21,833 nucleotides of DNA, taken from positions 1 to 21,833 of the IMG/VR virus record IMGVR_UViG_3300021197_001675; one strand, 5' to 3'. The position numbers and the translations under genes were made by a program. Below the pieces are notes generated by a model. It was given only the letters and a program-made list of their open reading frames with translations. It made no database searches and was not told the origin of the DNA. Origin of the DNA: a virus. This document shows, in pieces, positions 1 through 21,833 of the stretch. Every line of letters starts with the position of its first letter. The stretch's first letter is position 1.

Positions 1-20
1 GTCAAACTATTACTGGCTAA
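1..20 (+). CDS. C-terminal end of an upstream gene (partial)
   Basis: An open frame entering from the left edge ends at a TAA at 18-20 (last residues Q-T-I-T-G). The next gene's Shine-Dalgarno (AGGAG, 22-26) follows at once, the tight spacing seen throughout this strand. Too short to identify; it is called only because the stop fits the packing of the neighbouring genes. Confidence 0.3.
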
Positions 21-5524: not shown

Positions 5525-6077
5525 GTTCTTCTTGTAGCAAACTATGTATATAGCGGTGACCTTCATCATTTGGATGTAAGTGATCCGCTATATATTTTGA
5601 CTTGCTTTCCTTGTTACTTCCGTCAGCACCCAGCGTGTTAACCATACCCGGCACACAATCAACATGCATATAGCGCAAGTTGTTTAACTTGCAAGTAGTT
5701 TCTACAATGTGACGAGGATACCAAGTGTGTATATGCTCAATGTATTCACTGTGTTGATTAACTAGATAGTCCTTGCAACTATCAACTAGCGCACTATCAG
5801 ACTTTTTCCCTTGTACATAATTCATATGTTCCCAACGTTGGGTTTTGTTGTTATACCAGCTCTGTCTATTTGGATGACTCCATCCAAATATCACTAGATC
5901 ATAGGGGGTAATGTCTGTATATGTTTCACAAAACTTTAGTGCAATATGAGGGTTACTAGCACTGCTTTCACTGTGTTGTACAAATCTAAATCCTAACTGC
6001 GCTGCTACAAGTTCGCCGTAGCAGATAGTTGCTTCTTCGCCTAAACTTACACTACATCCGTACTGATAAAGTTTCAT
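5508..6077 (-). CDS. SGNH/GDSL hydrolase-like protein
   Basis: 189 residues. I see the SGNH layout: block I as YGCSVSLGE with Ser9 as candidate nucleophile; SNPHIA with Asn42 in the block II region; block III replaced by DLVIFGWSHPNR (65-71) instead of the usual GxND; and a good block V, Asp165-His-Leu-His168 in DHLHPNDEGHR. SGNH enzymes are esterases, lipases or carbohydrate deacetylases; the substrate is unknown here. No signal peptide is seen, so it would act in the cytoplasm or in the virion. GGAG about 7 bases before the ATG sets the start. The first 26 bases overlap the end of the HNH gene, so the two are co-transcribed; the far end overlaps the convergent plus-strand gene by 17 bases. 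The family call is fair; catalytic competence is less sure because block III is atypical. Confidence 0.68.
   Translation of the reverse strand: MKLYQYGCSVSLGEEATICYGELVAAQLGFRFVQHSESSASNPHIALKFCETYTDITPYDLVIFGWSHPNRQSWYNNKTQRWEHMNYVQGKKSDSALVDSCKDYLVNQHSEYIEHIHTWYPRHIVETTCKLNNLRYMHVDCVPGMVNTLGADGSNKESKSKYIADHLHPNDEGHRYIHSLLQEELSLLL
5511..5533. other. Inverted repeat at convergent gene ends
   Basis: AAGAAGAA (5511-5518) and TTCTTCTT (5526-5533) form an exact 8-bp inverted repeat with a 7-base loop holding the plus-strand stop. It lies where two convergent genes overlap. The stem is weak (A/T-rich) and lacks a T-run, so any terminator role is doubtful; it may simply reflect Glu/Lys codons. Confidence 0.35.
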
Positions 6078-6597
6078 GTATTACTCCGTTAGGTATATAA
6101 TCTAACCAACTATGATGCTTTACCTGAAAAGGAAAACGGCTCCTTAGAGCCGCCATGTGGTAGTATGTTGGAGTCTTGGGCTCATGCCGGGGGTTCCAAA
6201 GTTTACTGCCTTTAGCAACATTACATGGTTTACAACTAATAACACAATTTTCCCAAGTACTTTTTCCACCTTTACTACGAGGTATAACATGGTCAATAGT
6301 CAAGTCTGGAAAATTATGTTGTTGTCCACAATACCCGCAGCGATATTCATCTCGTATTGCAAGATTGTGTCTATTGAAACATACATTATGATCAATCTTT
6401 TGAAACTTTTTAATCATTACAGTGGCAGGTACTTGCATTGTAGTTGTTGGACTGCTTATGCGCCAGTCATCATACCATTCTAGCACAGTGACTTTGTCTA
6501 AGAAAAACAACTTGACTGCACGTTGCCAATTAATAGTACTGACAGGAAAACTACTTATAGGTTGTCCGCTAGTGTTTAATAACAGTGTATCACTCAT
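6052..6597 (-). CDS. Free-standing HNH endonuclease
   Basis: 181 residues. The HNH/treble-clef core spans about 80-135. The zinc cysteines are Cys87-x2-Cys90 (RCGYCG) and Cys122-x2-Cys125 (CKPCN). The catalytic part is Asp102-His103 (TIDHVIPRSKGG), Asn117 in WENC, and Asn126. The N-terminal ~70 residues (LLNTSGQPISSFPVSTINWQ, then AVKLFFLDKVTVLEWYDDW) match the leading region of a widespread bacterial HNH family (the McrA-like COG1403 group), so this is a full-length protein and not a fragment. It lies inverted between small and large terminase genes, with the SGNH-like gene downstream. It may be a homing endonuclease-like element or assist DNA processing; T4-like headful packaging does not need one. 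Confidence 0.88.
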   Translation of the reverse strand: MSDTLLLNTSGQPISSFPVSTINWQRAVKLFFLDKVTVLEWYDDWRISSPTTTMQVPATVMIKKFQKIDHNVCFNRHNLAIRDEYRCGYCGQQHNFPDLTIDHVIPRSKGGKSTWENCVISCKPCNVAKGSKLWNPRHEPKTPTYYHMAALRSRFPFQVKHHSWLDYIPNGVIHETLSVRM

Positions 6598-8460: not shown

Positions 8461-8468
8461 CATAAATA
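8461..8468 (+). promoter_or_regulatory. Late-promoter-like octamer for the 855-aa gene
   Basis: CATAAATA, one base off the T4 consensus, followed by exactly five bases (CACAC) and the ATG at 8474. No Shine-Dalgarno lies before this ATG. The expected transcript starts at or next to the ATG. Confidence 0.5.
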
Positions 8469-8473
8469 CACAC

Positions 8474-11041
8474 ATGAGAAGCATTGATAATATAGCAGAA
8501 GAACTGTTTGATAAGATTCGTAGTCGTGTCGCTAACATTAAGTTGGGGGACGAAAATGGTGCGGTAACTACCAATTCAAGCCAAGCAAGATTCTTTGAAT
8601 TTAACTTTAAACACAGAGATTTGCCAGTTGGTGCAGTCACTATTAGCCTCAACGAAGAAGGTGTATTACAAGTATACTTTCCTAACAGTATGGTTGAAGA
8701 AGCAGATAGTAGCACAGCAGATGCTTGGTATGGATTTTTAAAAGAGCTGAGCAGATTCAGTGCAAGAAACATGTTAAACTATCAATCTCATAATGTAACA
8801 AAAGAGAGACTGGACAAAAAAGACTACCAGTTTTTAACACAACGTAACCAGGACGAAGTGATGGAAAACAGACTACACGGAACAAGCCAAAAGAGTTTCC
8901 TAGAAACAGGAACAGCAAAACTTATTATTAAACATAACGGCACAGTAGATGAAACTAAGATGGGTGCAAGAAGTCGCAACATCAGTGCTATCTACATTGA
9001 GAACAGTGAAGGCGAACGCTTCAAGTTTGCTAACAACTATCTACCTGGTGCAAGAGCAATGGCAAGACATGTGTCAAATGAAGGACACACCCGTGATGAT
9101 CGCGGCATGCACATTGTTGAGATTATGAAAGAAATGACAGATCTTAAAACATTTGTGCGTAGTGTAAAGCGTGAAGAGTATGTAAATGAGGATGCGCAGG
9201 AAGTGATTGATGCTGCAACTGATAGATACTACGGCTTAAAAGATACACTAAAAGCAATTAGCAGTGCTAAAGGCTATGGCGACTACTTTGAAAACTGGGT
9301 ACCTGGCGCAGTTGAAGTAGACGAAAATGACATCGAAGATCTAAAACAAAAACTAACTCGTGAAGTATATGATGATAGACTCACAGATAGTTTACCTAGT
9401 GTGAGAAAAGCAATGGATCATAAAGCAAACATGGAAGCAAAGAAAGATGATGAAGAGGAGTTAGATACCCCAATTAAACCTTACTTTGATAGATCAATTG
9501 ATCCTCAAGAGCCTAAGAACTTGGATGCAAAAGCAGATGCTAACACTGCTAAAGGTTCTCAGTCACTAAATGACATTGCAGACAGCGATGATGATATTGA
9601 AGTCTATAACAACGAAGCAGACATTGCTGAACTCCGCAACTATATGCAGTTTATGAAGAACAGCGACATGGAAGTAGGTAAGAAGAATCGCAGCATTCTA
9701 GTTGCTATTATGAAATACCTAGCAAACAACATGACCAATGATGCTGCAGCAAACAGTGTAAGTGAAATTGAACTTAATGACAAGGCGCAGGAAGCAACAG
9801 CACTTAAACTTGCAAAGAAGTATCTACAGGGCAAAATAGAGATTCTACAGCCCAAGGCTAAGAAAGATCTATATGGTAAAGACAAAACTGAAGATACTAC
9901 ATTTGAAGCATATGCACAGCGTATGGATATGATTGCAGAAGGCACATGGGCATTACCAGAGAACGAAGCAGAAGCAATGAAACTTGCAGCAATGATGGCT
10001 CAGCCTGTTACACTAGGTGATGGTGGTGATGATGCTGCAAGCGCACTTGGCGGACTAATAGGTGATGATGAGTTGTTTGATGATCTAGGTGTAGCAGGTG
10101 ACAAAGATCCAGAAGGTGATGCCCGTCCAATTATCATAGGCTGGTTAATGGATCATGTAGATGACTATGATCAGAAGTTCCAAGAAACAATGAAGATGGC
10201 ATTGGACAAGATTCGTTCAATGGGTGTTGACAGCGATATGGTTATCCCAAGAATGTTTGGTAATAAGCGCATGCCAGCAAACACAAGTGCTACACAGGGC
10301 GAGCGTATGGGCAGCAATGCAGACGACATGAAAGAAGATCCAAACGAAGGCAACGAATTCTCAGGCGCACTAGCAAAGGCTAAAGAAGAAGGCAAAGATG
10401 AATTTGAAGTTGATGGCAAAGTGTATAAAGTTTCAGAAGCAGATTATGATCTGTCAACACTAGACGGCAAATACGGCAATGAACCTGTAAAAGGTAAAGA
10501 AGGTATTCTACAAACTAATGTAGAGGACGATGTAAATGATATTGCAGCAACAATGGAAGAAGATCCAGAGTTGGAAAATTTTGCTATGGCATTTGAAAGA
10601 TCAGTATATGCAAGTGGTGACACAAGCCCAGAAGGAATTAGAGCAGCACTTGAAGAAGTACTGCCAGATTATATTGCAGGTTCTAGAATTGAAGACCTAA
10701 TGAAAGTTATTGAAAGCACTAACGAAGGCAGAATGAGTGACATCAATATTGAAATCCAGGATATGGTTGCAGATGGTGCAAGCAATGATGAGATTAAGAA
10801 AGCAATTCCAATGGCAACAGATCGTGTAATTGCAGACATTCGCAATGAAATGGATGAGTCAATTGATGAAGTAGACGAAGCAGCAGAAATGATTGCAAAG
10901 ATGCGTTCTATGGCAGGCGTTGGTAGTGGTACAAGAAGCAACCACGGCATACATGAAGGCGAACAAGGCTATCAACTTACTCCACGCAGTATTGTAGCAA
11001 GAGAATTACGCAAACTTCAGGATATTGAACGAAGCTCATAA
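8474..11041 (+). CDS. Large acidic protein, 855 aa, probably virion-associated
   Basis: No domain that I can name. The first ~270 residues look globular, with beta-type segments (ARFFEFNFKHRDLPVGAVTI, LQVYFPNSMVEEADSSTADA, and AKLIIKHNGTVDE around 150). From about 280 on the protein is strongly acidic, rich in Asp, Glu, Ala and Met and mostly helical or disordered, ending with a short basic segment (SIVARELRKLQDIERSS). Similar long proteins follow gp17 in other marine T4-like phages and have been called structural, to my recollection; this is from memory, not a search. The gene has its own late-like octamer and is followed by a strong terminator 20 bases after the stop, so it ends the packaging transcription unit. 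Length, charge and late promoter fit a scaffold, internal head or tail protein. Confidence 0.85.
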   Translation: MRSIDNIAEELFDKIRSRVANIKLGDENGAVTTNSSQARFFEFNFKHRDLPVGAVTISLNEEGVLQVYFPNSMVEEADSSTADAWYGFLKELSRFSARNMLNYQSHNVTKERLDKKDYQFLTQRNQDEVMENRLHGTSQKSFLETGTAKLIIKHNGTVDETKMGARSRNISAIYIENSEGERFKFANNYLPGARAMARHVSNEGHTRDDRGMHIVEIMKEMTDLKTFVRSVKREEYVNEDAQEVIDAATDRYYGLKDTLKAISSAKGYGDYFENWVPGAVEVDENDIEDLKQKLTREVYDDRLTDSLPSVRKAMDHKANMEAKKDDEEELDTPIKPYFDRSIDPQEPKNLDAKADANTAKGSQSLNDIADSDDDIEVYNNEADIAELRNYMQFMKNSDMEVGKKNRSILVAIMKYLANNMTNDAAANSVSEIELNDKAQEATALKLAKKYLQGKIEILQPKAKKDLYGKDKTEDTTFEAYAQRMDMIAEGTWALPENEAEAMKLAAMMAQPVTLGDGGDDAASALGGLIGDDELFDDLGVAGDKDPEGDARPIIIGWLMDHVDDYDQKFQETMKMALDKIRSMGVDSDMVIPRMFGNKRMPANTSATQGERMGSNADDMKEDPNEGNEFSGALAKAKEEGKDEFEVDGKVYKVSEADYDLSTLDGKYGNEPVKGKEGILQTNVEDDVNDIAATMEEDPELENFAMAFERSVYASGDTSPEGIRAALEEVLPDYIAGSRIEDLMKVIESTNEGRMSDINIEIQDMVADGASNDEIKKAIPMATDRVIADIRNEMDESIDEVDEAAEMIAKMRSMAGVGSGTRSNHGIHEGEQGYQLTPRSIVARELRKLQDIERSS

Positions 11042-13072: not shown

Positions 13073-14176
13073 ATGGCAAAACCGTTTGACGTAAGCAAAT
13101 TTAGAAAAGACATTACAAAAAGCATTGATGGATTAAGTATTGGCTTTCACGATCCCACAGATTGGATTAGTACAGGCAGTTATGCACTTAACTATCTTGT
13201 AAGTGGAGACTTTTACAAGGGTGTGCCTATGGGCAAAGTTACAGTGTTTGCTGGTGAATCAGGTGCAGGTAAAAGTTATTTTGCAAGTGGTAATATTATC
13301 AGAGCTGCACAAGAACAAGGTATCTTTGTTGTAGTAATTGACAGTGAGAACGCACTTGATGAAAAGTGGTTACAAGCACTTGGTGTTGATACAGATGAAA
13401 GCAAACTGCTTAAACTAAGCATGTCGATGATTGATGACGTTGCTAAAACATTTAGTACATTTATGGCAGACTACAAAGCAATGGCAGAGGAAGATCGGCC
13501 TAAGGTATTATTTGTACTAGATAGTTTGGGTATGATGATGACACCTACTGATGTTGACCAGTTTAACAAAGGCGACATGAAAGGTGACATGGGACGTAAA
13601 CCTAAGGCACTTACTAGTCTTGTGCGTAACACAGTTAACATGATTGGCAGTTATAACGTTGGTATGGTGTGTACTAATCATACATACGCAAGTCAAGATA
13701 TGTTTGATCCAGATGATAAAATTAGTGGCGGACAAGGCTTTATCTATGCAAGTAGTATTGTTATTGCAATGCGAAAACTTAAACTAAAAGTAGACGCAGA
13801 TGGTAATAAGACTACTACAGTACAAGGTATTCGTGCTGCGTGTAAAGTTATGAAAACACGTTATGCAAAGCCGTTTGAAGCAGTACAAGTACAGATTCCA
13901 TATGAAACAGGCATGGATCCATACAGTGGATTGCTTGACTTGTTTGAAGCAAAAGGCATGCTAACTAAACAAGGCAATCGTTTGAAGTATACAACTACTG
14001 CAGGTGTTGAAATGCTGGAGTTCCGCAAAGGATGGACAGGTGAAAAACTGCAGGCAATTATGGATGATATTAGTAACGCAGACGGACTAAGTATTGATGA
14101 TATAGTTGATGGCGCACCAACAGAAGATGTTGTTGATCCAGAAACAGGCGAAGTATTAGAGGAAAACAATGAGTGA
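13073..14176 (+). CDS. uvsX: UvsX RecA-like recombinase
   Basis: 367 residues (T4: 391). UvsX forms filaments on single-stranded DNA and drives strand invasion in recombination-dependent replication. Walker A GESGAGKS is at 61-68, Walker B near Asp151 in VLFVLDSLGMM. Downstream come the RecA-type loops, VGMVCTNHTYASQDMFDPDD (about 200-220) and ISGGQGFIYASSIVIAMRK. The C-terminus is acidic (DPETGEVLEENNE), as usual for regulation of DNA binding. AAGGAAG (13062-13068), 4 bases before the ATG, fixes the start. The last eight bases overlap the next gene. Confidence 0.96.
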   Translation: MAKPFDVSKFRKDITKSIDGLSIGFHDPTDWISTGSYALNYLVSGDFYKGVPMGKVTVFAGESGAGKSYFASGNIIRAAQEQGIFVVVIDSENALDEKWLQALGVDTDESKLLKLSMSMIDDVAKTFSTFMADYKAMAEEDRPKVLFVLDSLGMMMTPTDVDQFNKGDMKGDMGRKPKALTSLVRNTVNMIGSYNVGMVCTNHTYASQDMFDPDDKISGGQGFIYASSIVIAMRKLKLKVDADGNKTTTVQGIRAACKVMKTRYAKPFEAVQVQIPYETGMDPYSGLLDLFEAKGMLTKQGNRLKYTTTAGVEMLEFRKGWTGEKLQAIMDDISNADGLSIDDIVDGAPTEDVVDPETGEVLEENNE

Positions 14177-14390
14177 TGTAGAAATTGTAATTGACGCTTA
14201 TAAAATACTTAAAGAGTACATACCAGCAAAAGACCGACAGTTGGCAAGTGATCATTTTGTTGAAGATATGCAAGAAGTTCTAGAAGAAGAACAGTTGTAT
14301 AAACTTGGCGGAGTAGACAAATATCTTAAAGCAAGTGTTAAAGATTTGCTTGGAGAAGAGGACTTCGAAGACGAAGATGATGAGTATTGA
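14169..14390 (+). CDS. Small acidic protein between uvsX and uvsY, 73 aa
   Basis: It starts inside uvsX (8-bp overlap, GAGGAAAAC just upstream of the ATG) and its stop overlaps the uvsY start, so it is a true member of the operon. It is predicted helical: VEIVIDAYKILKEYIPAK, then RQLASDHFVEDMQEVLEE, then a last stretch of nearly pure acidic residues (EEDFEDEDDEY). A small protein in this position is, as I recall, common to marine T4-like phages, and has no known function. The acidic tail might mimic DNA or bind UvsX/UvsY, which is a guess. Confidence 0.82.
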   Translation: MSDVEIVIDAYKILKEYIPAKDRQLASDHFVEDMQEVLEEEQLYKLGGVDKYLKASVKDLLGEEDFEDEDDEY

Positions 14391-14848
14391 GCCAATACTA
14401 CAACAGAATCGTAAATGACTTAGGTGCTATTCCTAGTTTCATCAGTTACTTTGAAAGTGAATTGGAAGAAGCAAAGCGTGAGTGTATAGTCAAGGGCATT
14501 GTAGAACGTAATATTACCGCACTGCCGGGTATAACTGAGCATCGTTTTAATCAATTACAAGAGATTGAAGCAGTGCTTAACTTCTTAAACATACAGTTAC
14601 GCAAGATCAGACGCAAGCATTTCCAAAAATATTTGGAAGGATATGCCCGTGCGTTAACAAGTCGCGATGCTGAAAAGTATGTTGATGGCGAGGATGAAGT
14701 CATTGACTTTGAAACTATTATCAACGAAGTAGCACTACTACGCAATAGGTGGCTAGGCATTATGAAAGGCTTGGACACAAAGCAGTGGCAAATGGGACAT
14801 GTTGTTAGACTTAGAACAGCAGGCATGGAAGATATAAGAATAGACTAA
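14387..14848 (+). CDS. uvsY: UvsY-like recombination mediator
   Basis: 153 residues (T4: 137). UvsY loads UvsX on gp32-coated DNA. Recognition rests on the helical middle and end typical of marine T4-like UvsY: LPGITEHRFNQLQEIEAVLN (about 45-64), LRKIRRKHFQKYLEGYARAL, SRDAEKYVDGEDEVIDFE, VALLRNRWLGIMKGL, and the closing VVRLRTAGMEDIRID. Order after uvsX supports it. The start is unusual: the frame is closed by TGA at 14381, and the first possible start is TTG at 14387, overlapping the previous TGA as TTGA. No in-frame ATG exists before residue ~125, so TTG is nearly forced. The terminator at 14854-14882 follows directly. Confidence 0.85.
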   Translation: MSQYYNRIVNDLGAIPSFISYFESELEEAKRECIVKGIVERNITALPGITEHRFNQLQEIEAVLNFLNIQLRKIRRKHFQKYLEGYARALTSRDAEKYVDGEDEVIDFETIINEVALLRNRWLGIMKGLDTKQWQMGHVVRLRTAGMEDIRID

Positions 14849-14853
14849 GTCAT

Positions 14854-14882
14854 AAAAAAAGCAGCGTTTCCGCTGCTTTTTT
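14854..14882. terminator. Bidirectional terminator between uvsY and porin
   Basis: AGCAGCG-TTTC-CGCTGCT: a perfect 7-bp stem flanked by an A-run on one side and a T-run on the other, so it works in both directions. Read on the minus strand the loop is GAAA (GNRA) followed by T's, the more stable form, ending the porin mRNA. It separates two converging transcription units. Confidence 0.93.
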
Positions 14883-14898
14883 ATTATCCAAAAACAAA

Positions 14899-15738
14899 TT
14901 AGAATTTAATAGCAATACCCATTGCTGTTGTCTTTTCACTTGCTGTTTTGTCATCAGTTGTATTTTCGATAAATGCTACTGCACCTGGAGCAAGTGTATA
15001 CTGTGCGCCTAGTGTAATTTCATCACTTGAAACTGTACCTGCTGATTCAGTTTTCATTGTTTCAACACCTACCATCATTGCACCAACTGTGTAAGTTGCG
15101 CCCATTGTAGTTGTGTCTGTGTCAACGTCTGCTGCAGTTGTTGCTGTATGCTTTTCAAAAGCAACACCAATTGCACCAAGACTTGCAGTTGCATTCATTA
15201 GGAATTCTTCTGAATCATCAGCGTTTTTCATCTGACCTGCACCAATTGTTGCAATTTCTTCGAGACCATAAACAGCACTGTATGCATAGCCTTCGCCTGC
15301 TGATGTGCCATAGTCATTGCCAGTTGCATTACTAATGTTTACAGTAAGTCCGCCATATGGTGATAGACTTAAAATACTTGAATGATCTGTGCTTGGCGAG
15401 CCATTGCCCAATACATATGTAAAGTCTGTTGTATCGTCGATTGCGTCAAGCGCACTGTTTACATCACCTAGGTCAAGTTTAAATACGTCATTACTTACAG
15501 TAATACTATTGCCGCCATCATCTGCACCAGTGTGATCCAAGTTAATGTCTGCACCGATAGTTAAGCCTGTGTCTGTACTAGTACTTGCTTTAAAGTTAAT
15601 ATCACCATCCATTACTGTTGATGTTGTTCCGTCGTTGTCCTGGTATGACCATTCCATGTCTCCGCCGATAGTTACATCAGCCATAACAGGTGTTGTCAAT
15701 ACTGCCAGTAGAGCAGTAGTTGCGAGTAGTCTTTTCAT
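14899..15738 (-). CDS. Outer-membrane porin, alphaproteobacterial type (phage-borne)
   Basis: 279 residues. A Sec signal peptide covers 1-20: MKRL, then a hydrophobic stretch, then PVMA with cleavage before DVTIGG. The mature part starts as porins do (VTIGGDMEWSYQD), has alternating-strand pattern throughout (for example LTIGADINLDHTG, AYSAVYGLEE, MMVGVETMKTESAG), and ends with a terminal-Phe strand (AMGIAIKF), the beta-barrel assembly signal. The EITLGAQYTLAPGAVAFIEN motif near the end is typical of Porin_4-type proteins of Rhodobacterales and relatives. It is shorter than most (300-400). AAGGA lies ahead of the ATG. Its codon preference and AT content look like the neighbouring phage genes. 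It would be made by the host Sec/BAM route and could change uptake or mask receptors. Confidence 0.83.
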   Translation of the reverse strand: MKRLLATTALLAVLTTPVMADVTIGGDMEWSYQDNDGTTSTVMDGDINFKASTSTDTGLTIGADINLDHTGADDGGNSITVSNDVFKLDLGDVNSALDAIDDTTDFTYVLGNGSPSTDHSSILSLSPYGGLTVNISNATGNDYGTSAGEGYAYSAVYGLEEIATIGAGQMKNADDSEEFLMNATASLGAIGVAFEKHTATTAADVDTDTTTMGATYTVGAMMVGVETMKTESAGTVSSDEITLGAQYTLAPGAVAFIENTTDDKTASEKTTAMGIAIKF

Positions 15739-15769
15739 TGTCTTATATTTCCTTCTGGGGGGTTAGTTT

Positions 15770-15786
15770 ACAGCATTTATTGCTGT
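15770..15786 (-). other. Small inverted repeat in the porin leader
   Basis: ACAGCA-TTTAT-TGCTGT, an exact 6-bp inverted repeat lying 32 bases upstream of the porin ATG. It could be a leader hairpin or an operator. Too short for a firm call. Confidence 0.35.
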
Positions 15787-15853
15787 TTTGTTCTTTATTA
15801 TGCTTGCAAAAAGGTGAGTTAACACGAATTACTTGGCGAAAACATAACAAGGA

Positions 15854-15864
15854 TATTTATTATA
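15854..15864 (-). promoter_or_regulatory. Candidate porin promoter (TATAAT overlapping AATAAATA)
   Basis: In the 218-base gap between the radical SAM stop and the porin ATG, the minus strand holds TATAAT (15864-15859) overlapping a late-like AATAAATA (15861-15854). No convincing -35 box was found 17 bases upstream (TTTTAG). Either reading predicts a start near 15848-15852 and a leader of about 110 bases. The gap is otherwise AT-rich, without any gene. Confidence 0.4.
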
Positions 15865-15956
15865 TTTTTATTACTTTGTTGCTAAAAATGCAATATATTC
15901 TTTACCAGGTGTGAGATTTTTTTATTGGTGTTGCATATTTACAACTATGGAAGATA

Positions 15957-17429
15957 TTAGAATTGTGTAACAATTTTTGCTATTTCTGGGTAAGTTTCTT
16001 TAAAGTTTTCATTGCGTCTTGCATCAATAATATCTAATTCGGTCATAAGTTCTTTTTCAAGCCCATGGTATATATAATCTCCAAATTTATTTGCTAGGTT
16101 CTGAACATATTCAAACTTACTTGCTTTTAATTTTTTTACTACATAATCAGTATTCTTAATATTATACACACTAAAATATTCAGGATGCCATAAAAAATTA
16201 AAACTTATTTTTAAATTGTTATCTAATGCAAACTGAGCAACATCATCTAAATCTAACACATTAAAAATACTTACAGTACAGTGAAGATGCAGGTCAAAGT
16301 TGCATTTATTGTATTTTTCAATATTTTCTTCTACTATATTCCACTTTACCGTGCCGTGTCTTTCATAGTTAAATTTTTCATTTATGTTATCTATGCTAAA
16401 AACTAGTTTAACTTTTTGGAATTGTAATAACTCTTTGACTAACTCATTATTATAAATTGTGCCATTTGTATTGTAAGATATACTTATATTTTTTGGTAAA
16501 GTTTTAAGTAGTGCAATATGTTTTGTATCTAACATAGGCTCTCCGCCTATAAGTTTTATACTTTTTAATTCTTGTAAATCTTTTCCAAAATCTCTCCAAA
16601 ATTCACTAGTAGTTTTAAATGTGTAATCTACTTCATGTAATTCTGGTCGCTGTATACCAAATTTTTTATCTTCTTTGTACCAGGCACTACTTCTGCCATA
16701 GAAACAAATTCTGCACTTACTGTTACAACTAAATCCTATTTTCAAATCCACAGTAACTGGACTATTTTGGACATTAAAAAAGTCTGTAGTGAACGCAATA
16801 GGTTGTTTTAAATCTCGTGTTCTTTTACTAGGTAAGCCTACATTTTCAGATTTCCAACAATAATCACAATAACTTGATTTTTTTCCAGACAAAAAATCTT
16901 CTCTAAATGACTCATAGTCCTTACTTTTCCATGCATCTATTACGCTATCAGATAATATGTTCATTCTTGATTTATCTCGATAAAAATAATGTCCTACAGT
17001 TTCGCAACAAGATCTATAATCTCCATTGGTCTTAATTTCTAAATTAGTGAAAGGAGTAATGCAAATAGTATCCGGGTAGTCAAACCTAGTATTTCTTTGC
17101 ATTTTTAAAATTTTTTCGTCATTTATAGTGCAGTTGACAATATCTTTACAATAGGTGTTTATTAATTCTTCGGTGTGACTGTTGTTTGTAAAAAAATGTA
17201 TAAAATAAGTTGGTATATCTAAATATTCTACAATGCGAAAAAAATGTTTCCAAATGCCAAATTCAGTTTCTCCATAAGCAGTTATGATGATCCTTTCATC
17301 TGTACTATATGTTTCTTTGGCGATTGACTGTAAGTCATTATACATATCAGCGAAAGGAAGATTGTAATAATTGCTTATTTCTTTTTCAAATACGATCACG
17401 GATTCTGCTCCACTGTACACCAATTTCAT
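15957..17429 (-). CDS. Twitch-domain-type radical SAM protein
   Basis: 490 residues. The radical SAM cluster motif Cys235-x3-Cys239-x2-Cys242 (CNSKCRIC) follows a strand (VTVDLKIGFS). Further on are IKLIGGEPML (the GGE motif), ISYNTNGT and VKLVFSIDNINEKFNYERHG, as in SPASM/twitch radical SAM enzymes. Before the core, at about 125-205, lies a cysteine-bearing twitch-like segment (ICITPFTNLEIKTNGDYRSC, then CDYCW) for an auxiliary cluster. An added N-terminal region (1-115) has an alpha/beta look and no name. Such enzymes act on peptides, sugars or nucleotides; the substrate is unknown. ATG at 17429 is preferred; the frame can be extended two codons to a TTG. It overlaps the GT-B gene by 44 bases and is co-transcribed with it. 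Confidence 0.86.
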   Translation of the reverse strand: MKLVYSGAESVIVFEKEISNYYNLPFADMYNDLQSIAKETYSTDERIIITAYGETEFGIWKHFFRIVEYLDIPTYFIHFFTNNSHTEELINTYCKDIVNCTINDEKILKMQRNTRFDYPDTICITPFTNLEIKTNGDYRSCCETVGHYFYRDKSRMNILSDSVIDAWKSKDYESFREDFLSGKKSSYCDYCWKSENVGLPSKRTRDLKQPIAFTTDFFNVQNSPVTVDLKIGFSCNSKCRICFYGRSSAWYKEDKKFGIQRPELHEVDYTFKTTSEFWRDFGKDLQELKSIKLIGGEPMLDTKHIALLKTLPKNISISYNTNGTIYNNELVKELLQFQKVKLVFSIDNINEKFNYERHGTVKWNIVEENIEKYNKCNFDLHLHCTVSIFNVLDLDDVAQFALDNNLKISFNFLWHPEYFSVYNIKNTDYVVKKLKASKFEYVQNLANKFGDYIYHGLEKELMTELDIIDARRNENFKETYPEIAKIVTQF

Positions 17430-18240
17430 CTGCAAACCATTCGATATAACTCATACGGTTTAGCCACACATGTCTACTGGGCTTGCTTAACCATCCGCCC
17501 ATGCTAGTTCCAACATCGTACGCTAAACTACTTTCGCTTACTATTGCAGGCACACCTTGTATAATACTGTTTATGCCAGCATTGCTACTATGGCTTACAG
17601 TAAAGTGCGTATGCTTTAGCATATGCTCTAAATCAAAACTATCATAAGTTTGTTGAACCTGCTGAGGTATATTCCAAGTTACGTCTTGTTCTTTATACCA
17701 TTGCATATCGCATGACCAATGCAATGACTCTCTATAGCGAGGATGGCTTCGAACAACTATAGGCTTGTCTGTAAACTTGCGTATTTCTGCAATAGTATTA
17801 CGATAGTATGTATCCATATCGGGCATATTGCGCCACTGTTCACTGTGTCCGTGCTGTCCACAAATTAAAATGTATTCGCCATGTTGCTTCCAAGGTTGCA
17901 ATACAATACCAAACTTTTTTACTCTATCGTCTGGCATGTAAGTATCCACTGCAAAGTCTGCATCTCTGTTGATCCCGTTTATACCCAACTTCCAAGTTTC
18001 ATTGCGTATAAGCCCGCCCACTTCAATGACAATGACTGGCTTATTTCGTGCGCGGTAATGATCCCATACTGCTTTGTTAGCACCCATTTTACCAAACCAT
18101 AATACACTCCATATGAGAGCAGCATCAGCATCCATGTCATTTTCGACAAGTGTGTCTGTTTGTTGTATAGCATTTACGAGTTGTGGGTAAACTTCTTTTG
18201 CGTTACCTGGTAAATTGTCAGGAAAGTGAGATATTTTCAT
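17386..18240 (-). CDS. GT-B-fold glycosyltransferase-like protein (capsule KpsC/KpsS style)
   Basis: 284 residues. Recognition is by pattern: KPVIVIEVGGLIRNETWKLG (about 67-87), YILICGQHGHSEQW (near 120-133), KPIVVRSHPRY (about 155), and the nucleotide-sugar-site-like Ser216-His217-Ser-Ser-Asn-Ala-Gly followed by IIQGVPAIV. The last block, S-S-N-x-G-x-x-x-I-x-x-G-x-P, is the typical GT-B C-domain signature of capsule Kdo transferases and related surface enzymes. No membrane segment is seen; a cytoplasmic enzyme is expected. There is no Shine-Dalgarno; TAAAAT lies five bases before the ATG. First gene of the minus-strand unit, directly overlapping the radical SAM gene. Donor and acceptor are unknown. 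Confidence 0.62.
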   Translation of the reverse strand: MKISHFPDNLPGNAKEVYPQLVNAIQQTDTLVENDMDADAALIWSVLWFGKMGANKAVWDHYRARNKPVIVIEVGGLIRNETWKLGINGINRDADFAVDTYMPDDRVKKFGIVLQPWKQHGEYILICGQHGHSEQWRNMPDMDTYYRNTIAEIRKFTDKPIVVRSHPRYRESLHWSCDMQWYKEQDVTWNIPQQVQQTYDSFDLEHMLKHTHFTVSHSSNAGINSIIQGVPAIVSESSLAYDVGTSMGGWLSKPSRHVWLNRMSYIEWFADEIGVQWSRIRDRI

Positions 18241-18256: not shown

Positions 18257-18264
18257 TATAAATA
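18257..18264 (+). promoter_or_regulatory. T4 late promoter, exact consensus TATAAATA
   Basis: A perfect TATAAATA octamer, five bases (GTTAT) before the ATG at 18270 and no Shine-Dalgarno. It is the only exact consensus noted in the window and drives the plus-strand accessory genes, 18270 onward, which overlap one another as ATGA or are adjacent. Confidence 0.62.
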
Positions 18265-18269
18265 GTTAT

Positions 18270-19160
18270 ATGCGCACATTATCAGTATTTACCACTTGGC
18301 ATCCAATAGGCTATAAGAAATATGGCAAGCAGTTCATTGAAGGATACAATGCAAACTGGCCCAAGGAAGTTTCTCTAACAATCTATGCTGAGGATCACAA
18401 TCCAGATGTACAGGGTAATCACATGATTACACTGAACGATCAACGAACAGCATTGCCAGATTTAAAAAGTTGGCAAGAGCGTCATAAAAATAATCCACAC
18501 GCACACGGATATAACAAGGACAAAACTAAAAAAAGTTTTCTTTGGGATGCAAGTCGTTTTGCAAACAAAGTGTTTGCACTGTGGCACTTTGCAGAACACT
18601 GCAACACAGACACGTTCATATGGTGTGACGGCGATGTAAGAACACATACACCTATGACACTGGAGTTTATACACAGCATTGCTCCTAGTGAAAATCAACT
18701 TGCTACATACTTGGGACGCAGGACTTGGCCCGAGTGCGGCTGGATGATGTTTAATCGCAACCATCCAAAGTTTGCGGAGTTTATGGAGCAATGGCGTTGG
18801 ATATACGAAAGTGATGACATCTTTGAACATGATGAATACCATGATAGTTTTATCTTTGGCGAACTAGTGGAAGACTTTAAAGCAGTGGGTGTAGAATTTA
18901 ATGATCTGGGCGGACCAGACAAAGGCGGGCATATCTTTATTAATAGTCCATTAGGAGCATACATGGATCACTTAAAAGGCTTTAGAAAAGAAGTTGGAAA
19001 AAGTCTAGCAGGTGACCTAGTAGGTGGATTTCAACATAGTGATAATCCTCATTGGCAAGACCTAAGACAAGTTAGTAAACAACAAATACGAGCAGAGAAA
19101 ATGAAAAATCCACATGAGTATGATGCAACACAAGAACAAAAAAGTAAGGGGATAAAATGA
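18270..19160 (+). CDS. GT-A-like glycosyltransferase
   Basis: 296 residues. The start MRTLSVFTTWHPIGYKKYGK, then a strand and loop (EVSLTIYAEDHNP), the aspartate pair Asp120-Gly-Asp122 in FIWCDGDVRTH (a DxD-type metal/nucleotide site), and then GWMMFNRNHPKF (about 154-165) with DDIFEHDEYHDSFIFG reads as a GT-A transferase of the GT8-like sort. Donor and acceptor cannot be told. No signal or membrane segment. Read from the TATAAATA promoter at 18257; the end overlaps the oxygenase gene (ATGA at 19157-19160), which suggests linked expression and related function. The C-terminus is charged and tail-like. Confidence 0.66.
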   Translation: MRTLSVFTTWHPIGYKKYGKQFIEGYNANWPKEVSLTIYAEDHNPDVQGNHMITLNDQRTALPDLKSWQERHKNNPHAHGYNKDKTKKSFLWDASRFANKVFALWHFAEHCNTDTFIWCDGDVRTHTPMTLEFIHSIAPSENQLATYLGRRTWPECGWMMFNRNHPKFAEFMEQWRWIYESDDIFEHDEYHDSFIFGELVEDFKAVGVEFNDLGGPDKGGHIFINSPLGAYMDHLKGFRKEVGKSLAGDLVGGFQHSDNPHWQDLRQVSKQQIRAEKMKNPHEYDATQEQKSKGIK

Positions 19161-19930
19161 GTAACCTAAGTGTATTACAAAACATAACAGAAGTGCGCAG
19201 CGATCCGTATCCTTATGTATGCGTGGAAGGCGCAATGCCTGACAGATTTTACAGAGAACTAGAAGCAACATTTCCAGAGGATATGATTGTTAATAATACA
19301 CAGCCACATGATGGCGGTATTTGTTATCGCTTTAAATGTAAAGAAGCAGAGATGTGGGAACCACCTGCTATCTGGCAAGACTTTTTTAGATATCATTCAA
19401 GTACAGAGTACTTTCGTGCATGTGCAGAATTATTTGCTCCGCATATTGTTGCAGCATATGGTGAAGAGTTTTATGAAAATTTAAAAACTAAGCCAGTTAG
19501 TGTGCGTGATGTAGACAGCAGTGGACACTATGTTACTGACTGTCAGTTTGTTGTACATGAACCTGTGGATCAAACAGGCACAAGTCGTACACCGCATGTG
19601 GATAATCCTGTTGAGATCTATGCTGGACTGTTATACATGCGCAAGCAAGCAGACATGGCAGAGGGCGGTAACTTTACAGTGCATAGAGTCACAGGCGAAA
19701 TCACAGAAGTAAACAAGAGCTTGGGCAGACAAGTGGATGCTAGTTTACATGAGCCTGTGTTTGAAGTACCTTATCGTGCAAACAACTTTTGTATGTTCCT
19801 CAATGTAAAAGACAGTGTACACAGTGTTACACCTCGCATTGCTCCTGTAGAGCGTAGACACAGCATTAATATTATAGGCGAGTTTAACGGTACAGGCAAG
19901 ATGTGGAAGGTAAAAGAAATTAAGTCATGA
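19157..19930 (+). CDS. 2OG-Fe(II) oxygenase
   Basis: 257 residues. The iron site is His147-x-Asp149 (RTPHVDNP) with distal His222 (DSVHSVTPR), and an Arg about 11-12 residues later (Arg233/234, VERRHSINIIGEF) for the 2-oxoglutarate carboxylate. The jelly-roll strands between (IYAGLLYMRKQADMAEGGNF) fit the prolyl-4-hydroxylase-like group. Enzymes of this type hydroxylate proteins, sugars or small molecules and are frequent in marine T4-like phages. AAGGGG (19146-19151) supports the start. It is overlapped by genes on both sides (ATGA), inside the glycosyltransferase/methyltransferase run. The substrate is not evident. Confidence 0.88.
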   Translation: MSNLSVLQNITEVRSDPYPYVCVEGAMPDRFYRELEATFPEDMIVNNTQPHDGGICYRFKCKEAEMWEPPAIWQDFFRYHSSTEYFRACAELFAPHIVAAYGEEFYENLKTKPVSVRDVDSSGHYVTDCQFVVHEPVDQTGTSRTPHVDNPVEIYAGLLYMRKQADMAEGGNFTVHRVTGEITEVNKSLGRQVDASLHEPVFEVPYRANNFCMFLNVKDSVHSVTPRIAPVERRHSINIIGEFNGTGKMWKVKEIKS

Positions 19931-21171
19931 GATATGCCATTGGCAAAGTTAGTGGTGTATTCATTGACAATGATGTAGCAGTAAAGTTTTTTGGAATAAG
20001 AAACAAAAGTGTAAAGGAAGTCCGTGGCACTATACAAGAATGTTATGCTAGGGAATTGCTATGTTTGCAAAGGCTCCAAGGCATGCCTGGATTTCCTAGT
20101 ATTATAGCACATAGAGACGATGAGTTAATAATAGAAATGGAGAATTGTGGAGAAAGTTTATTTAATACTTGGCACGAATATGATTTAACATTATACTTGG
20201 ATCAAGCAAATCGTATTTGCGATGCATTAGAAAAAGCAAATATACAATACTTCTTTGCAGGATTAAATAAAAAACCTAACAAGCCACCTATAGCATATAA
20301 TCCTAGAAGCGACTTTCCTTTAAGTAATCTGTGCATTAAAGATGGAGAACTAACACTAATAGACTTTGAAATGGCTAACCCAAAAGGATCTTATTTAGAA
20401 GATGCATTACATCCTAGACTTAAAGCATTGTATGAGAACTATAACCCTGATCATTTTAGAGAGTTTTTACTAACTGGATTGCGTTACCCAAAAGAAAGTT
20501 TTGACAAAGAAATGTGGAGGAAAATACCTCCTAGTGATTTTAAAGAAGAAAAATGGAATAAAATGAAAGATACTAACCCAAGAGAGGTATACAAATCAAT
20601 GACAACATTCACACAACCCAGCGATAAGATTGTTAAAGAATGGCGCAAGTATCAAAAACGTTTTGGTAAAGATCAAGCAGTTGAAAGAGTGCAAAAAATG
20701 AACCTGTCCAGTGTTTGTGGAGCAGACAAAACAGTGGTTGACATTGGGTGTAATGATGGATATATCAGTATGCTAGTAGCACCCTTGGTAGCAAGCGTAA
20801 CAGGAGTTGAGCCACATGTTGAACTAACTGAGGACAAGCCTGCAAATGTTACTTGGGTGCGCAATACCTTTAACGAGTTTTTGGCAAGCAATCCAGGCAC
20901 ATTTGATGTACTACTTAGTTTAGCAGTAAGTATTCAGTTGCGAGACTTTGGTGGACTTACAGAACAAGAGATAGTAAACGGATACTATAGTTTACTACCT
21001 GTTGGCGGCATTGTTGTACATGAGACACAAAAATTAGAGAATAGACCCAATAATCAAGAACATACAGCAGCAATGATTGACGCCTTTAAAACTAAGTTTG
21101 TGCAAATAGAACATGGAGATGCTAGAGGCAGCGGCAAACGAGAATACTATCATTTTCGCAAGGAGGCGTAA
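19927..21171 (+). CDS. Kinase-like domain fused to a class I methyltransferase
   Basis: 414 residues in two parts. Residues 1-~235 are kinase-like: Lys20 in VAVKFFG, Glu43 in the helix ARELLCLQRL, Asp129-x4-Asn134 in RSDFPLSNLCIKDG, and Asp146-Phe-Glu in LTLIDFEMA. This matches the layout of aminoglycoside-phosphotransferase/lipopolysaccharide-kinase folds, though the usual His before the catalytic Asp is missing. Residues ~255-410 are a SAM methyltransferase: VVDIGCNDGYISML (Asp272), VTGVEPHVEL, and a late FDVLLSLAVSIQL with LLPVGGIVVHETQKL. One protein could phosphorylate and methylate the same target. The start overlaps the oxygenase stop (ATGA), with only a weak ribosome site. Confidence 0.8.
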   Translation: MRYAIGKVSGVFIDNDVAVKFFGIRNKSVKEVRGTIQECYARELLCLQRLQGMPGFPSIIAHRDDELIIEMENCGESLFNTWHEYDLTLYLDQANRICDALEKANIQYFFAGLNKKPNKPPIAYNPRSDFPLSNLCIKDGELTLIDFEMANPKGSYLEDALHPRLKALYENYNPDHFREFLLTGLRYPKESFDKEMWRKIPPSDFKEEKWNKMKDTNPREVYKSMTTFTQPSDKIVKEWRKYQKRFGKDQAVERVQKMNLSSVCGADKTVVDIGCNDGYISMLVAPLVASVTGVEPHVELTEDKPANVTWVRNTFNEFLASNPGTFDVLLSLAVSIQLRDFGGLTEQEIVNGYYSLLPVGGIVVHETQKLENRPNNQEHTAAMIDAFKTKFVQIEHGDARGSGKREYYHFRKEA

Positions 21172-21833
21172 ATGGCATTTAATAATATTATGCAACTAGC
21201 AACTGCAACGTTGACAGCACAAGGTGCATTTGCTCCAGGTGCAACAGTGGTTGAATGGGGCAATCAACGTTTTAGATACAGTGAGGATTGGTTGAATGAA
21301 TGTGAAAAAACAAGCGGACGAACATTGCGTAAACCAACACAGTTTGTATGGGAATACTTTGAGGATCTGGGGTTTAGTGATTACCTTGCTATTGATATCA
21401 ACACTGAACTTAGGTCTATCGCTATGGATCTTAATTTTATCCTAAAAGACAAGTACAACTACACACAAGAGTTTGACTATGTAACAAACAATGGCACAGG
21501 TGAACACATCTTTGACCAGCGCACAGTGTTTGAGAATATGCATAACTTATGTAAAGTTGGCGGTACTATGATAAATGTACTTCCTTTTGCGCCCTGGTTT
21601 AATCATTGCTTTTACAGTTTCCATCCGCAGTTGTTCCGTGACATAGCTGCAGCAAATGGATATACCTGGCAGTTTATGTGGTTAGCACAAAACACAGGCA
21701 AGTACGTTGAATGCCCTACAGACTTTGATAGTTGGAGTTACTATGAACAAAAAAAGCCGCGCAATCCTATTAGTGATTTGGAAAAGCATTTTGATGCCCT
21801 TCATAATCGCGAAGGCAAAACTCATAATGTTAG
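21172..21833 (+). CDS. Methyltransferase-like protein (partial, runs off the right edge)
   Basis: Open for 220 codons with no stop before the window end. AGGAGG at 21161-21166, the best Shine-Dalgarno of the window, sets the ATG; a TAAATG junction joins it to the gene before. Visible features are an N-terminal helix and TVVEWGNQ, a degenerate Rossmann-type strand (YLAIDINTELRSIAMDLNF), EFDYVTNNGTGEHIFDQ, then VFENMHNLCKVGGTMINVLP with PWFNHCFYSFHP, like SAM methyltransferases of the Methyltransf_23 sort in which motif I has decayed. The call is moderate because the glycine-rich loop is not clear. Confidence 0.58.
   Translation, partial: MAFNNIMQLATATLTAQGAFAPGATVVEWGNQRFRYSEDWLNECEKTSGRTLRKPTQFVWEYFEDLGFSDYLAIDINTELRSIAMDLNFILKDKYNYTQEFDYVTNNGTGEHIFDQRTVFENMHNLCKVGGTMINVLPFAPWFNHCFYSFHPQLFRDIAAANGYTWQFMWLAQNTGKYVECPTDFDSWSYYEQKKPRNPISDLEKHFDALHNREGKTHNV

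Follow-up and report, generated by a model that had tools for sequence, protein, structure and literature searches.

A flippable and exchangeable porin module with a late-type promoter motif at one locus in relatives of jumbo phages

Why would a phage carry a gene for an outer-membrane porin, and does such a gene belong to the phage at all? The question is raised by a 21.8-kb viral fragment (hereafter the window, meaning the whole stretch of DNA that was analysed), in which a porin gene lies between genes for UvsY and a radical SAM protein (Table 1). As a porin gene normally belongs to the bacterial host, an obvious explanation would be that the segment is host DNA or that host and phage sequences were joined in assembly, and an earlier note made from the sequence had named such a chimera among the results that would undo its finding. 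A porin was found, however, in another 45 IMG/VR contigs, which come from many different metagenome samples; it lies between the same neighbours, UvsY and g17, and its locus is the same in every contig that shows both sides. In addition, the window-type phage porins form one clade apart from all cellular porins found. The host or chimera reading is thereby already refuted, and we give it practically no weight. The porin is also no isolated oddity: it is an exchangeable module, present in most of the close relatives that were found.

The gene order in these contigs is UvsX, a small gene, UvsY, an optional cupin and methyltransferase, the porin, an optional radical SAM gene, g17, g18, a 2OG oxygenase and g19. 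The radical SAM gene comes and goes at the porin slot, and distantly similar genes are variably placed near UvsX and UvsY in relatives. Downstream of g18 the window (19157-21831) encodes 2OG oxygenase-like, methyltransferase-like and other proteins, the order of which is conserved beside the porin locus.

Table 1. Features of the porin slot and its flanks in the window.
Feature	Position	Strand	Basis or remark
UvsX-like recombinase	13073..14176	+	phrog_97, 5.7e-71
UvsY-like recombination mediator, left flank of slot	14387..14848	+	phrog_231, 1.2e-12
Bidirectional intrinsic terminator, AAAAAA-AGCAGCG-TTTC-CGCTGCT-TTTTT	14854..14882	.	palindrome with A and T runs
Porin gene, 279 aa	14899..15738	-	ORF, Porin_4, 16-strand model, OmpU/2por folds
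Porin precursor: signal peptide	residues about 1-20		
Porin precursor: mature barrel	residues 21-279		
Conserved 5' leader (GTTATGTTTTCGCCAAG...CACCTTTTTGCAAGCATAA...)	15739..15853	-	leader alignment
Shine-Dalgarno AGAAGGA	15750-15756		within porin 5' leader
Leader hairpin	15770-15786		within porin 5' leader; consensus fold, pair counts
NATAAATA promoter motif (AATAAATA), late-promoter type	15854..15861	-	conserved motif
Degenerate copy of module-end palindrome GTGTTGCAWATWTGCAACAC	15928..15947	.	
Scar: second copy of uvsY 3' end (TATGGAAGATATTAGAATTG); overlaps the rSAM gene at its end	15946..15965	+	
Twitch-domain radical SAM (rSAM) protein, right flank in window	15957..17435	-	NF033640, 6.7e-77
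g17, protein of unknown function, right flank in most relatives	17386..18240	-	

The porin reading frame is complete from ATG to stop, and a typical signal peptide (MKRLLATTALLAVLTTPVMA/D) and a C-terminal phenylalanine can be read in it by eye, in line with the earlier description. The match to the Pfam family Porin_4 is far above chance (E 1.1e-19; 71.8 bits with a cut-off of 27; profile positions 1-306 of 310), and a profile of the phage porins recovers the Vibrio OmpU in the PDB (2.9e-8). Searches of PHROGs and NCBIfam gave no porin-family match for the protein. The barrel pattern noted before, for which a structure prediction had been proposed, is borne out by an AlphaFold2 model (alignment A4, 26 sequences; pLDDT 72, pTM 0.64) with 16 strands and, between strands 5 and 6, a 25-residue loop at the place of the constriction loop L3; the evidence here is a model and not a solved structure, and part of the L3 loop falls below pLDDT 50. 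An earlier run on 21 close sequences had reached a pLDDT of 46 and was unusable by itself. The solved structures that Foldseek ranks best for the model are OmpU (8.6e-11), 2por and other porins, and VIA-align gives Z scores of 18.7 for OmpU and 17.6 for 2por. Together these results identify the protein as a general-diffusion porin of the Porin_4 class, with a fold class predicted by the model.

The protein is a small member of this class. The mature chain has 259 residues, whereas the solved porins listed by the Foldseek search have 289 or more; it contains no arginine and carries a net charge of about -32, and in the model its outer loops L5-L8 measure just 2-5 residues each. Identity to the four cellular porins compared is about 32-39%. 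By a simple pairwise method the mean dN/dS over 20 porins is 0.23, with 0.16 for the outer loops and 0.25 for the strands when the loop positions are taken from the model. The porin is thus under purifying selection and kept intact.

The earlier note had called the phage T4-like. T4-type core genes are indeed found in the window (gp32, UvsX, UvsY and Terminase_6N), but in the strict sense the label does not hold: the large terminase TerL is nearest to those of the jumbo phages of the PA5oct type (52%), Phosso (49%) and 2.275.O (45%), and UvsY is likewise nearest to jumbo-phage proteins (46-50% identical). Relatives of the fragment include contigs of 203 and 209 kb. Judged by these genes, the phage is a jumbo-phage relative that is T4-like only in a broad sense; no sign of a temperate phage was seen. 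The label "marine" is our reading of the sample series. In PA5oct, Phosso, Atu_ph07 and 2.275.O, as in the window, UvsY follows UvsX, but unlike the window, 2.275.O, Phosso and vB_Pa-PAC2 have no annotated porin beside UvsY. A direct search among genome contigs yielded no relatives of the window, and there was no match in tblastn searches of both porin types against phage records or of the window porin against plasmids. Beside the terminase gene the window encodes, on the minus strand (6052-6597), an HNH protein with a core similar to the HNH regions of IscB and Cas9d (NF040563, 3.6e-12, below the family cut-off).

What surrounds the porin gene suggests that it is a self-contained module, consisting of the gene with a bidirectional terminator, a conserved leader and a NATAAATA promoter motif. 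The terminator proposed earlier stands, with the addition that it is common to the convergent UvsY and porin genes. The relatives inspected keep it at the porin 3' end, and this holds also where the porin is of a different, gammaproteobacterial type. On the other side of the gene, most of the window-type relatives have the palindrome GTGTTGCAWATWTGCAACAC directly after the stop codon of the neighbouring gene, and a less constant promoter-like stretch lies between the palindrome and the ATAAATA motif. A 60-kb relative has palindrome and terminator nowhere but at the porin; in the 203-kb relative, a carrier of the other porin type, the palindrome is missing and the terminator occurs once more at another place. 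The leader is about 115 nt long. A structured, riboswitch-like leader was considered and rejected, as its consensus stem has little covariation; some covariation is seen only in the hairpin before the ribosome-binding site, and a search of Rfam gave no match.

The earlier note had further proposed that the porin has its own promoter. A conserved candidate does exist, yet it is not of the sigma70 type: a sigma70 scan returned no minus-strand promoter just upstream of the porin, and a TTGCAT-17-TATAAT-like box, which many relatives show on inspection, is only weak here in the window, so that a sigma70 promoter was rejected for this gene. The candidate is instead a phage motif, probably of the late type. 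Its core, ATAAATA, is invariant in 19 of 19 aligned porin leaders, and both porin types have the motif, at 122 nt upstream of the ATG in the window, at 120 nt in G986, and at 89 nt before the gammaproteobacterial-type porin of G987, the 203-kb relative. When gene starts are assigned by a simple ORF caller, the share of ATAAATA copies that stand 10-160 nt upstream of a same-strand gene start is 6 of 7 for the window, 14 of 18 for the 60-kb relative and 36 of 47 for the 203-kb relative. With permuted 7-mers the share is 13-16%, and all 20 permutations stay below ATAAATA. The genes behind the motif encode virion structural proteins, a tail spike, a baseplate connector and an endolysin, but also NrdB and a protein of the ferredoxin family. 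The latter gene (L300 1181-1858, minus strand, in the 203-kb relative) matches the PHROG "ferredoxin" at 8.6e-103 and has no Pfam match.

A NATAAATA motif before virion, tail and lysis genes is the pattern of the late promoters of T4 and the cyanophages. Because structural, tail and lysis genes throughout the 203-kb relative bear the motif, the porin, too, is probably transcribed late, its timing being read from the motif. The more distant relative L316 (G992) has a recognisable gene for a gp55-type late sigma factor (3.2e-6), and none was found in G987 or G986, two fragments nearer to the window; an initial gp55 match in G987 proved to be a false positive, the protein being a UDP-glucose dehydrogenase. 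At two sites in the window (8461-8476 and 18257-18272) and at many sites in L298-L307, ATAAATA stands only 11-15 nt before an ATG (for example ATAAATAcacacATG); if the motif is a -10 box, such spacing would leave the late mRNAs with no leader or almost none.

The motif common to structural, tail and endolysin genes could also indicate a porin that is made late for the virus particle itself, or for weakening the outer membrane at release. A standard signal peptide and a porin barrel with an L3 loop do not agree with a virion or lysis role, and the gene is absent from the close relatives L172, L173, L263 and L273, which must still assemble and lyse. We therefore hold a virion-associated or lysis-stage porin to be improbable.

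The module is not fixed in its direction. The porin faces UvsY in most contigs, and runs with it in 11 (L008, L015, L016, L025, L171, L264, L286 and L292-L295). On the porin tree this amounts to 5 orientation changes, at least 4 of which are forced by well-supported branches, and the orientation label is about as scattered as shuffled labels; on the backbone tree there are 4 changes. Close relatives can differ, as in the same-strand porin of L008 and the convergent one of the window, which are 92% identical while the UvsX proteins are 98% identical. Whichever way the module lies, the junctions read show it ending at the stop codons of its neighbours; its promoter side is marked by the palindrome and its other side by the terminator. 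A site-specific inversion system was rejected, since the module ends are two different palindromes, and inspection of the junctions read revealed no inverted-repeat pair that would explain the inversion. In L019 (1-1804) the order is a partial UvsY (+), the porin (+) and UvsY (-), with uvsY sequence on both sides of the porin and a palindromic join; this contig may reflect both orientations in one population, or it may be misassembled.

The module is also gained or lost. The methyltransferase gene is joined to g17 in the porin-less relatives L173, L277, L278 and L281, and in L263 and L273, likewise porin-less, the radical SAM gene directly adjoins UvsY; in all, porin presence changes 3 times on the backbone tree. 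The uvsY 3'-end pattern is present only twice in the window, and the copy beyond the porin matches the UvsY/rSAM junction of the porin-less L263 and L273 in about 18 of 20 bases. We read this second copy as a recombination scar. Other genes can be found in this position: the slot of the porin-less L172 (6213-7025) holds a cytidylyltransferase fused to a mannose-6-phosphate isomerase-like cupin protein, and in L184 and L207 a sugar epimerase or dehydratase-like protein, identified by eye, comes after UvsY.

Finally, the porin is exchanged against the phage backbone. The window and L171 have UvsX and UvsY proteins that are 96 and 97% identical, and porins that share 59%; for the window and L005 the relation is reversed, with 78% for UvsX, 81% for UvsY and 93% for the porin. 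The extreme case is L015 versus L251, where UvsX and UvsY are 95 and 97% identical and the porins only 26%. The porin of L251-L253, a Porin_4 protein of 312 aa, groups with OmpU/OmpC-type porins of the Gammaproteobacteria (support 97/84), and the window porin family groups with porins of small AT-rich alphaproteobacterial genomes (97/90), outside the Rhodobacteraceae; the taxon labels of these cellular sources were inferred from sequence, genome size and GC content. A single origin of both phage porin types is disfavoured and not rejected (p-AU 0.07), with long branches in play. The comparisons thus show exchange of the module, with a gammaproteobacterial-type porin among those in the slot. 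The earlier note had suggested a comparison with the porins of the Pelagibacterales and Rhodobacterales. Among the cellular porins sampled, the nearest are those of small AT-rich alphaproteobacterial genomes, with the Rhodobacteraceae further out; all cellular matches of the window-type porin are remote (best E about 7e-10, with well over a thousand genomes sampled).

The occurrence in both orientations, the uvsY scar and the exchange between lineages would also fit a mobile cassette that is kept by recombination between phages and brings them little benefit. A dN/dS of 0.23, the conservation of leader, promoter motif and terminator, and the presence of the porin in most close relatives found make such selfish or neutral cargo improbable as well.

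What, then, would the phage gain from the porin? The earlier note had put forward a block to superinfection or a rise in nutrient uptake. We propose, at a probability of about one half, that a late-made porin module adds to or replaces the porins of the host and so lowers re-adsorption of phages. Late in infection the module would be transcribed from the phage's own late-type promoter, the precursor would be exported by the host Sec and BAM machinery, and porin trimers would add to or replace the host porins in the outer membrane. In view of the short outer loops and the lack of arginine in the mature protein, the pore is expected to be small and cation-preferring and to offer little surface for phage binding. 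The most likely benefit of the changed surface would be that its own progeny, and competing phages as well, re-adsorb less to infected cells and debris.

The same pore could serve nutrition, by letting more of the small cationic or neutral solutes through the outer membrane of a nutrient-poor host while a long infection lasts, with the synthesis of host porins shut off. The pore fold is conserved and under purifying selection, the strongly acidic, arginine-free mature chain would suit a cation-preferring pore, and a phage OmpL porin beside amtB and glnK is on record in marine viral contigs (PMC8115048). In the window, however, the porin has no linked nutrient gene, a late promoter would leave little time for uptake, and fast exchange up to total replacement on a near-identical backbone is more like a surface or exclusion module. 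We consider an auxiliary nutrient porin, the chief competing reading, possible, though rather unlikely. Because porin replacement on a stable backbone resembles surface and exclusion modules, we favour, by inference, receptor change over nutrient uptake, at about 5 to 3.

Some observations count against remodelling of the surface by a short porin. Late synthesis would displace pre-existing porins only slowly, and the gammaproteobacterial-type porin of the slot is longer (312 aa). Moreover, the outer loops are conserved and not diversifying, a conservation that an arms race might not predict.

Going one step further, we tentatively suggest, as a view that may well prove wrong, that marine jumbo phages maintain a dedicated "porin slot", a cassette that is expressed late, can be inverted and exchanged, and is filled with porins from different bacterial lineages, and that they thereby rebuild the outer membrane of infected cells, in its pore as well as its receptor content, as competing phages or hosts change. 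A porin that is flipped and swapped under an apparent late switch suggests that phages rebuild the surface of the cells they infect. If so, uncultured marine jumbo phages would control both the permeability of the outer membrane and the display of receptors by the infected cell. The natural set of paired genomes, with, without, flipped and swapped, allows a direct test of the use of a phage porin.

How does the module compare with known systems? With general porins of the Porin_4 class, such as OmpU of Vibrio and 2por of Rhodobacter, the window porin shares a whole-length HMM match, the predicted 16-strand barrel, L3 and the C-terminal phenylalanine; unlike these, it is phage-encoded, shorter in its mature chain and free of arginine there. 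Phage porins have so far been known mainly from temperate enterobacterial phages. The lambdoid examples are Lc of phage PA-2 and NmpC of a cryptic prophage, both OmpC-type porins of temperate enterobacterial phages, and Lc changes the porin make-up and the phage receptors of the host. Like them, the window porin is carried by a phage and has its own control signals; it differs in belonging to a jumbo-phage relative, in its phage late-type promoter motif and in the exchange of porin types at one slot. The "OmpC" porins of uncultured Caudovirales (A0A6J5LP82, A0A6J5L4P1) and A0A2I7SAB4 resemble the window model in fold (Foldseek E 1.7e-4 to 8.4e-8) and are 13-16% identical over the model. The OmpL found beside amtB in marine viral contigs has been assigned to phages of Bacteroidetes (PMC8115048), and a search of the open-licence literature turned up no article that describes a porin in marine jumbo phages. 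With the phage morons, the module has in common that one gene, equipped with promoter and terminator signals, stands between genes that are adjacent in relatives; unlike the morons, it has the NATAAATA phage promoter motif and not a sigma70 promoter, and occurs in both orientations at one site. Phage porins as such are therefore already known, and what is new here is a porin of apparent late type that can be flipped and swapped at one jumbo-phage locus.
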